This document shows positions 57,044 to 60,201 of a stretch of 64,000 nt of DNA, piece after piece. The stretch spans positions 20,665 to 84,664 of the forward strand of contig CALFUN010000005.1 of NCBI GenBank assembly GCA_937929915.1. Direction: 5' to 3'. Both the position numbers and the translations under genes were made by a program. The notes under the pieces were generated by a model. That model was not told the DNA's origin. It worked only from the letters and a program-made list of their open reading frames with translations, and did no database searches. Positions within the stretch are counted from its first letter, which is position 1; each line of letters starts with the position of its first letter. Origin of the DNA: an uncultured Caulobacterales bacterium (GTDB lineage Bacteria > Pseudomonadota > Alphaproteobacteria > Caulobacterales > Maricaulaceae).

Positions 57044-57568
57044 CTAGTTTTCAAGGTCGCGAAAATCGCGGCGTAACTTCCACTCCTTAGATGTCACTGA
57101 GCGTTCTAAATCTTGCAAACGCGTCTCTAATGAGCGAAATTTTGATTTTACATCGCGAAAGCTTGTTGTCCGAACGGGCGCAGCTTGAGGAGCCTGAGCA
57201 GGGCGGCTATGAGATTCTTCGGCTGCTTCTCTAGCCTTGCGCGCTTCGTAATATTCACGGCGATAAGGGGCGCGTTTATCTTTCGGAATAAAGACCCAAA
57301 GCACGAAATACGCTAGTAACGGGAAGCCAAGAAAGATGACAGATAGAACAAATAATATCCGCATAATGGCGTGATCTAATCCGAAATAATCACCAAACCC
57401 CGCACATACACCGCCAAAAACACCATCTATTTTATTGCGGCGAAGTTTACGGCCTGACCTGAAATATGGCTCATCATAATCCGCTTCATAACTCTCCCAG
57501 CGGCCCCACTTATCTTCCCAAACTTCCTTATGTTCGTAACGCGGGGTATTTTTTCTGCGCTTACTCAT
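57044..57568 (-). CDS. pspC: Phage shock protein C
   Basis: About 174 residues from ATG 57568, which has GGAGAG a few bases upstream and overlaps the end of pspB by eight bases; the track starts nine codons earlier. The PspC domain is near residues 40-100: KLRRNKIDGVFGGVCAGFGDYFGLD, then a hydrophobic helix LFVLSVIFLGFPLLAYFVLWVFIP. A basic coiled-coil-like C-terminus follows. It acts with PspB as inner-membrane sensor of envelope stress that releases PspF from PspA. Confidence 0.93.
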   Translation of the reverse strand: MSKRRKNTPRYEHKEVWEDKWGRWESYEADYDEPYFRSGRKLRRNKIDGVFGGVCAGFGDYFGLDHAIMRILFVLSVIFLGFPLLAYFVLWVFIPKDKRAPYRREYYEARKAREAAEESHSRPAQAPQAAPVRTTSFRDVKSKFRSLETRLQDLERSVTSKEWKLRRDFRDLEN

Positions 57569-57803
57569 TTCTCTCTCTCCAATCTGGCACTTCACTATCT
57601 AATATGCGCTCTAAAACTGCAGCGCGTTGATCCAGAATATCTGCAATTTTCGACATTTGTTCGAGTTCGGCAATCTGATCGCCGCTCATATGGTGCATCA
57701 TCTTTTCCTTATGCTCATAATGCATTTTCAGCATTTTAGAGCCAATAGCGCCGATAATTGCGACGATCGGAATCATGAAGACTAATACTTCAGGTTCAAA
57801 CAT
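57561..57803 (-). CDS. pspB: Phage shock protein B
   Basis: 80-residue inner-membrane protein: one N-terminal helix (VLVFMIPIVAIIGAIGS) and a cytosolic coiled-coil tail (MSGDQIAELEQMSKIADILDQRAAVLERILD), the normal PspB layout. It partners PspC. Its stop lies inside the first eight bases of pspC, so the two are translationally coupled. Confidence 0.93.
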   Translation of the reverse strand: MFEPEVLVFMIPIVAIIGAIGSKMLKMHYEHKEKMMHHMSGDQIAELEQMSKIADILDQRAAVLERILDSEVPDWRERNE

Positions 57804-58629: not shown

Positions 58630-58767
58630 TTAAAAGATTTTCGCGACAAGGAAACCTGCAGCGAAAAAGCCCCAAACTTCGGGATGGCGTGTTGTAACGT
58701 AGCGGACAAAGCGTGCGCCTTTGCGGCGCCAGCTTTCAGTATTAGTATCATTCGGATAATCCATCAT
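58630..58767 (-). CDS. 45-aa small membrane protein in the psp operon
   Basis: Not listed in the ORF track. Reading from ATG 58767 (or the adjacent ATG 58764) gives MMDYPNDTNTESWRRKGARF and ends VWGFFAAGFLVAKIF, a basic middle with one C-terminal hydrophobic segment. A clear AGGAG overlaps the stop codon of the preceding 50-aa ORF (TAGGAG), so the two are coupled. It lies 44 bases upstream of pspA in the same direction. It resembles no Psp protein that I know. Confidence 0.7.
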   Translation of the reverse strand: MMDYPNDTNTESWRRKGARFVRYVTTRHPEVWGFFAAGFLVAKIF

Positions 58768-58773
58768 TAACTC

Positions 58774-58926
58774 CTAAAACCCGAAACCAGAAACACGGCT
58801 ACCCAAACGGCTGGGCGTCATAATTGCGCTGCGACGACGTGAGCGTGCATGTTTCGTGATTAAGGGTGCGCTGTCATTGGTGGCACCCAATGCGTTTGTG
58901 TCGATGTCTATAGTGCGGAAGGTCAT
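58774..58926 (-). CDS. 50-aa basic protein, first gene of the psp operon
   Basis: Translation from ATG 58926 has a strong AAGGAGAG four bases upstream; the track's 101-aa ORF is longer only because it runs through the leader. The protein begins MTFRTIDIDTNALGATND and has a basic stretch (KHARSRRRSA). No family recognised. It is the first gene of the operon and lies six bases before the 45-aa gene. A regulatory or leader role is only a guess. Confidence 0.6.
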   Translation of the reverse strand: MTFRTIDIDTNALGATNDSAPLITKHARSRRRSAIMTPSRLGSRVSGFGF

Positions 58927-58970: not shown

Positions 58971-58986
58971 GGCGGTGTGTACCGCC
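58971..58986. promoter_or_regulatory. Short inverted repeat in the psp intergenic region
   Basis: GGCGGT-GTGT-ACCGCC is a perfect six-pair inverted repeat in the 222-base gap between the 50-aa gene and pspF. It could be a regulator site or a leader hairpin of the psp transcript. I found no convincing sigma-54 -24/-12 element in this gap. Confidence 0.4.
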
Positions 58987-59148
58987 GACAATTAGAATAT
59001 GCCTAATGAAAGTCAGCTTGTCGATTTTTTTTAAATCATTGAAATACAAGCATTTTTTTAGAAATGTGTATTTTTTCAAAATATTTATTAGTAAATTATA
59101 CTATACTTTAGCTTTATTTATCACTTTAATTTGGTATAAATAACCATA

Positions 59149-60201
59149 ATGGCAAATATAGTAGCACAACCCATCGGCCAGTCTGAGCATTTCATGGCGA
59201 TTCTAGACCGTGTGTCTGACCTTGCTGTGATTGAAAAACCCATTTTAATCGTTGGCGAGTCTGGCACAGGTAAAGAACTGATCGCATCTCGCTTGCATTT
59301 CTTATCGCCGCGTTGGGAGCAAATATTCGTCAGCGTAAATTGCGCCGCCTATACAGAAACCGAACTTGATATTGAATTATTCGGAAGCTCTTTCATAGAT
59401 GGCCGTGATGATACGAATGGACGGTTTTTCCAAGCCCATGGCGGCACCTTGCTACTCGATAATATCGAAGCCGTAACGCCGCGCTTACAAGAAAAACTTA
59501 TTCGCGCCATTGAATATGGCAGCTATGAAGCGCGCGGGGAAATTCACTCTCAAGATGTGGACGTACGCGTATTGGCCGCAACGCATGCCGACCTACCTGC
59601 GGCCGCAAAGCGCGGCACATTTCGGCCCGACTTACTTTACCGTATAGCCTTTGACGTCTTAACCTTGCCCCCATTACAGGCCCGGCTTGATGATATTCTG
59701 CCATTATCTGAGCATTTTGGGAAAAAGATGGCGACCGATCTTGGCGCAGAGCAATTTCCAGGACTCAGCGCTGAAGCTGCGGAAATTCTACGCAGCTACA
59801 CTTGGCCTGGCAATGTCAGAGAACTCAAATCCGTTATAGAGCGCAGCTTAACCCGTGCATGGCTGCGCGATGAAAGCTTATCGGAGCCCTTAAATCAATT
59901 AATCTTTGACCCTTTTGAGGATCCGTACAGATTATCTGACACAACCGCGCAATCCATATCAACCGTCACATCTGACATAGCTACGGTGAACACAGCTTTA
60001 GATCCTCTTGACAACACAGACAATGATACGCAGACCGCCGCAGCCGCCAGCTTTTCAGAGCGCGTAATGGTGTTTGAGCGCCGCCTGATCGATGAGGCTC
60101 TAAATATTAGCAGTCATCATCAGGGCCGTGCCGCCGAACACCTGGGCCTATCCTATCATCAATTTCGCGGATTATTACGCAAACATGGCTTAAAAAAATA
60201 A
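59149..60201 (+). CDS. pspF: PspF-like AAA+ transcription factor, degenerate
   Basis: 350 residues, collinear with PspF: an AAA+ ATPase without a receiver domain and a C-terminal Fis-type helix-turn-helix (about 318-349). It is divergent from the psp operon, as in enterobacteria. Walker A (GESGTGKE, 36-43), the sensor region (ATHADLPAAAKRGTF) and the WPGNVREL box are intact. But the place of the GAFTGA sigma-54 contact loop reads SSFIDGRDDTNG (80-91), and Walker B reads LLLDN instead of DE (101-105). The conserved catalytic Glu is therefore absent. It may be a regulator that no longer opens sigma-54 complexes. A linker of about 60 residues before the HTH is longer than in E. coli PspF. Confidence 0.88.
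   Translation: MANIVAQPIGQSEHFMAILDRVSDLAVIEKPILIVGESGTGKELIASRLHFLSPRWEQIFVSVNCAAYTETELDIELFGSSFIDGRDDTNGRFFQAHGGTLLLDNIEAVTPRLQEKLIRAIEYGSYEARGEIHSQDVDVRVLAATHADLPAAAKRGTFRPDLLYRIAFDVLTLPPLQARLDDILPLSEHFGKKMATDLGAEQFPGLSAEAAEILRSYTWPGNVRELKSVIERSLTRAWLRDESLSEPLNQLIFDPFEDPYRLSDTTAQSISTVTSDIATVNTALDPLDNTDNDTQTAAAASFSERVMVFERRLIDEALNISSHHQGRAAEHLGLSYHQFRGLLRKHGLKK

Follow-up and report, generated by a model that had tools for sequence, protein, structure and literature searches.

A probable PspF orthologue lacking the GAFTGA loop at a psp locus lacking a −24/−12 promoter in Caulobacterales

In the window (the whole stretch of 64,000 nucleotides analysed here, from an uncultured Caulobacterales bacterium), pspF encodes what is most likely a PspF orthologue, which has probably ceased to drive sigma-54; we read it as a PspA-controlled, ATP-binding regulator, more probably an activator, that acts from a distance on a sigma-70-family psp promoter. 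PspF is the textbook AAA+ engine of sigma-54 transcription, and our literature search found no report of a PspF without GAFTGA. By sequence comparison, GAFTGA, the Walker B glutamate and the sensor I asparagine have been lost, and wherever GAFTGA went the psp −24/−12 promoter went too, about four times independently, with rpoN retained. The sequence-only reading had suggested that the psp genes are regulated by a route other than sigma-54, perhaps through a TyrR-like sigma-70 regulator or an ATP-switched repressor. Its general inference is strongly supported by this perfect co-loss and by the conserved sequence resembling a sigma-70 promoter that has taken the old promoter's place; the two specific proposals are conjectural. 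Both the sigma factor used and the direction of control, activation or repression, are what we infer from the arrangement described below.

The PspF protein and its relatives

The open reading frame at 59149–60201 (+), confirmed in frame, coordinates and strand, encodes a PspF-like protein of 350 residues and lies divergent to pspA-pspB-pspC. Its best match of all families is NCBIfam TIGR02974 (374 bits, E 6.6e-112, a score below the curated cut-off of 443.6), and its best relatives in the PDB are E. coli PspF chains. AlphaFold2 predicts a confident AAA+ fold (mean pLDDT 88), which matches the PspF crystal structures. The locus is laid out as follows.

57044–57595 (−): pspC, PF04024
57561–57803 (−): pspB, TIGR02976
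57896–58585 (−): pspA, TIGR02977, above its cut-off
58630–58767 (−): small membrane-type ORF of 45 residues, with WGFFAAGFLVAKIF, between the leader ORF and pspA
58774–58926 (−): conserved leader ORF of 50 residues (MTFRTIDID...), heading the psp operon
59149–60201 (+): pspF without GAFTGA, 350 residues, keeping Walker A (GESGTGKE), W56, R162, R168 and the Fis-type HTH

Both small ORFs ahead of pspA are conserved.

As the sequence-only reading had noticed, SSFIDGRDDTNG stands in place of the GAFTGA loop (L1), together with a three-residue deletion, and the Walker B motif reads LLLDN, which corresponds to E108N in E. coli numbering (the E. coli sequence used for numbering agrees with the PDB chain alignment over residues 8–257). 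In addition, Asn149 of sensor I is replaced by His, and N64 is present alongside the retained elements listed above. The Walker A motif (Lys42), D107, N64, R227, the W56 loop and the HTH residues are common to GAFTGA+ and GAFTGA− PspFs. The PspA-contact loop is conserved as RLHFLSPRWE, with W56 found in 31 of 31 loss sequences. Taken alone, the Walker B change is weaker evidence than the sequence-only reading had supposed, because E108Q PspF, which forms constitutive hexamers, still engages its target and remodels sigma-54 complexes (PMC4132715), and the change of Glu108 alone is therefore no proof of lost function.

From L1 to Walker B, two GAFTGA+ sisters share ~87–93% identity, and sister pairs of which one member has lost GAFTGA share 46–59%; in these mixed pairs the identity of the HTH is 55–79%. 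The dN/dS ratio of the GAFTGA-less AAA+ domain is ~0.02–0.05 within the window's genus, where dS is near saturation, and the codon comparison indicates that purifying selection is acting on this ATPase domain. A pseudogene was ruled out by reading frames that stay open across the clade and by the low dN/dS, and an isolated mutation or sequencing error by the clade-wide loss of GAFTGA.

An alignment of related PspFs, which had been proposed as a check, places the loss across the whole clade. Among 100 related genomes, PspF, where present, is divergent to pspA. Within the window's genus pspF was recovered from 15 relatives, every one of which lacks GAFTGA (16 of 16 counting the window), as do the two g12 members of the first sample; no relative within the clade keeps it. 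These 16 members of the window's genus and the two of genus g12 share a conserved loop of the type F(L/M/I)DxRxxTNG in its place. Other replacements are found where GAFTGA is missing in genera g2, g6, g16 and g19 and in parts of g11 and g18. In the wider sample of the class, all 29 PspFs keep both G[AS][FY]TGA and Asp-Glu. The Walker B glutamate is absent in 30 of 31 GAFTGA-less PspFs, the exception being L064, and is also retained in L338, a GAFTGA-less protein of the second sample, which suggests that the loss of L1 came first.

In a PspF tree built with the motif columns left out, GAFTGA− PspFs group with GAFTGA+ sisters. This tree and a second one of RpoN each require four state changes, three of which are forced by supported branches, and we estimate from these sequences about four independent losses, the recent ones visible in the mixed genera g11 and g18. 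A search for a second intact PspF elsewhere in the loss genomes found none, the other hits scoring like unrelated bEBPs. One genome of g11 (G728) has two pspF/psp loci, L311 and L312, in which both PspFs lack GAFTGA and both loci lack −24/−12. On contig C4 of the window's own genome, two proteins of the NtrC family (L002 and L005) are also without GAFTGA (GTENMDGSAIK; a large L1 deletion); in the same genome L001 (GAYTGA) and the RtcR-like L003 (GAYAGA) keep a version of it.

Co-loss of the −24/−12 promoter and the element in its place

The region between pspF and pspA was scored for TGGCACN5TTGCW, a −24/−12 site being called at a threshold of 12.4 within 60–190 nt of pspF (set after the first set had been seen), and GAFSGA and GSFTGA were counted as GAFTGA+. 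Among 90 psp loci of the same order, 49 have both GAFTGA and −24/−12 and 41 have neither, with no exceptions. A sign test cannot reach 0.05 here, because there are only about four independent events. The GAFTGA+ loci carry a strong site, in most of them ~134–141 nt from the pspF start. Between pspF and pspA of the window there is none: the highest-scoring candidate reaches 9.7 of 16.5, against a median of 9.4 for random sequence of the same length at 45% G+C, in agreement with the earlier remark that no clear sigma-54 promoter precedes the operon. The search for rpoN, another check proposed earlier, found the gene in 93 of the 100 relatives as well as in the genome of the window itself, and loss of rpoN was ruled out as an explanation. 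Genome-wide counts of strict −24/−12 sites were too low everywhere for genomes to be compared.

The elements that now lie between the two divergent genes are the following.

58996–59001 (−): putative −10, CATATT (CATMTT in most relatives), after a 17-nt spacer, at the position of the ancestral −12
59019–59024 (−): putative −35, TCGACA, its GAC invariant in 26 clade members
59032–59044 (−): site resembling the IHF consensus, TTTCAATGATTTA, kept throughout the loss clade; several GAFTGA+ relatives also have a recognisable version
59088–59104 (−): operator 3, ATAGTATAATTTACTAA, 80 nt upstream of −35
59108–59124 (−): operator 2, GTGATAAATAAAGCTAA, imperfect, 100 nt upstream of −35
59131–59147 (−): operator 1, ATGGTTATTTATACCAA, a palindrome of the type TTRGYN7RCYAA, 123 nt upstream of −35

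An alignment of the loss clade made without regard to motifs contains the conserved, IHF-consensus-like CAATNANTTAAAA, then GACA, a variable spacer of 16–17 nt and CATNTT. This TCGACA/GTGACA-N16-17-CATNTT element of the window's family now stands where the old promoter was, and since its −10 falls at the −12 position of GAFTGA+ relatives, the psp start site has probably not moved. The TCGACA-N17-CATATT of the window matches the sigma-70 consensus at 9 of 12 positions, with a weak −10, and we infer that the element in this clade is a sigma-70-family promoter; an alternative sigma factor is possible. GTGACA or GTGACT is found at the same place in the independent losers of g11 and g18. In the losers of family f5 (L064, L065, L334, L338 and L340), the old −12 is occupied by a shared TAVTGAATCCG-like sequence without a clear −35, and the sigma-70 reading is weaker there because this replacement (TAVTGAAT) differs. 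Taken over most loss lineages, the sequences look as if the old promoter had been replaced on the spot by an ordinary-looking one. As a check on RpoH, the sequences upstream of groES were examined in these genomes; they carry CTTG/TTGAAG with CACATG or CATACATG, unlike psp, a difference that is not decisive. The pattern TCGACA-N16-17-CATMTT gives 6 hits in the window's own genome, against 1 for a reversed-pattern control, and is too rare genome-wide for a regulon to be defined. We note that in many relatives the CGACAA at the −35 is repeated in inverted orientation by a TTGTCG just 3′ of the −10, at 58986–58991 (−) in the window.

Operators and the IHF-like site

Counted from the start of pspF, the TTRGYN7RCYAA palindromes lie at ~2, 25 and 45 nt in GAFTGA+ and GAFTGA− loci alike, and both groups have more of them than expected (75 found vs 22 expected in 24 GAFTGA+ loci, and 76 vs 26 in 26 loss-clade loci). 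In the window they abut the pspF start codon, and operator 3 overlaps a possible −10 of the pspF promoter (TATACT, 59097–59102, +). A search of the genus for further operator pairs gave only psp loci and background. The likely IHF site that is kept in the window's clade was called by its resemblance to the IHF consensus, WATCAANNNNTTR.

One genome (G005) carries a second pspABC (L307, contig C10, 3100–5300) without an adjacent pspF. Upstream of it, operators stand 123, 100 and 80 nt before GTGACA, which is the spacing of the window, together with an IHF-like site. At fourfold sites the two pspA copies of this genome have diverged by 44%, and the persistence of the operators without pspF despite such divergence indicates, in this one case, that they serve psp itself.

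Regulation without sigma-54: precedents and competing explanations

The window gene is probably orthologous to that of E. coli PspF and likewise divergent from pspABC, and its product combines an AAA+ domain with a Fis-type HTH and the PspA-contact loop of W56; unlike it, the protein is without GAFTGA, the Walker B glutamate and the sensor I asparagine, and its target is without a −24/−12 promoter. GAFTGA-less bEBPs that act with sigma-70 share with it the lost GAFTGA and the retained Walker A and DNA-binding domain. The closest precedent is the NtrC of Rhodobacter capsulatus and Caulobacter, likewise an alphaproteobacterial bEBP with an L1/GAFTGA deletion, which acts on sigma-70 promoters; ATP binding, and not hydrolysis, is reported to be essential for the Rhodobacter protein, and that of Caulobacter requires its Walker A and B residues (PMC10274813). 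These NtrCs are response regulators controlled by phosphorylation, a different family member at a different operon, whereas the window PspF has no receiver domain and is presumably controlled by PspA. TyrR, DhaR and HupR are further EBP homologues with a defective GAFTGA that depend on sigma-70 (PMC3162934). Like them, the window PspF has lost the sigma-54 contact motif; unlike it, they are not PspF orthologues and have other target genes. Additional sensing or receiver domains are carried by TyrR, DhaR and HupR.

We suggest that PspF would bind the three operators as an ATP-bound oligomer that hydrolyses poorly or not at all, and that DNA bending by IHF would bring it within reach of the polymerase, which it would then activate. 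In the absence of membrane stress, PspA would keep PspF silent by way of the Trp56 loop, and the classic Psp feedback would be preserved with a different polymerase. Operators 80–123 nt upstream of −35, an IHF-like site and a weak −10 are more in keeping with activation from a distance, as by Rhodobacter NtrC, than with the layout of a repressor; against this, operators so far upstream could also serve autorepression of pspF or repression by looping.

PspF might instead be a repressor that, with PspA or ATP as its switch, holds a sigma-70-type psp promoter shut from the three operators through an IHF-shaped loop until stress releases it. The retained operators and IHF-like site suit this arrangement, as does a protein that keeps DNA binding without the parts of an activating ATPase, and operators that abut the pspF start codon make repression of pspF itself plausible. 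However, the operators lie off the psp promoter, its weak −10 suits dependence on an activator, and the ancestor was an activator whose register is unchanged, and we regard repression as rather unlikely. More doubtful still is a scheme in which the operators serve pspF autoregulation only, psp being constitutive or under another stress sigma factor and PspF on its way to redundancy. The decay of AAA+ motifs in several lineages with the HTH kept, and operators adjoining the start codon, would be expected from it; the operators in register before the psp copy without pspF, and the low dN/dS of the AAA+ domain in the window's genus, would not, and it leaves no role for the IHF-like site. That PspF still works with sigma-54 in some unusual manner, at a degenerate −24/−12 site that went unrecognised, would accord with the presence of rpoN and the remodelling by E108Q PspF cited above, but is very improbable when the L1 loop is gone and −24/−12 is absent in 41 of 41 loci, against its presence in 49 of 49 GAFTGA+ relatives.

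The activator reading can be extended, more tentatively, to the whole set of losses. On no fewer than three occasions, and probably on four, psp may have changed its sigma class in situ, the sigma-54 motor being dropped and −24/−12 rewritten (in family f1 as −35/−10) at an unchanged distance from unchanged enhancers, with PspF becoming a PspA-gated, ATP-binding, IHF-assisted distant activator of a sigma-70-family polymerase and the F(L/M)DGRxDTNG loop its new polymerase contact.

Close sisters with the motor (G042, G046) and without it (G027, G053, G034) presumably do the same job with constant operators. Their contrast makes it testable how an enhancer-binding protein changes its polymerase partner, and what PspA controls when there is no ATPase to inhibit. 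On the favoured reading, annotation of GAFTGA-less pspF genes as sigma-54 activators is wrong.
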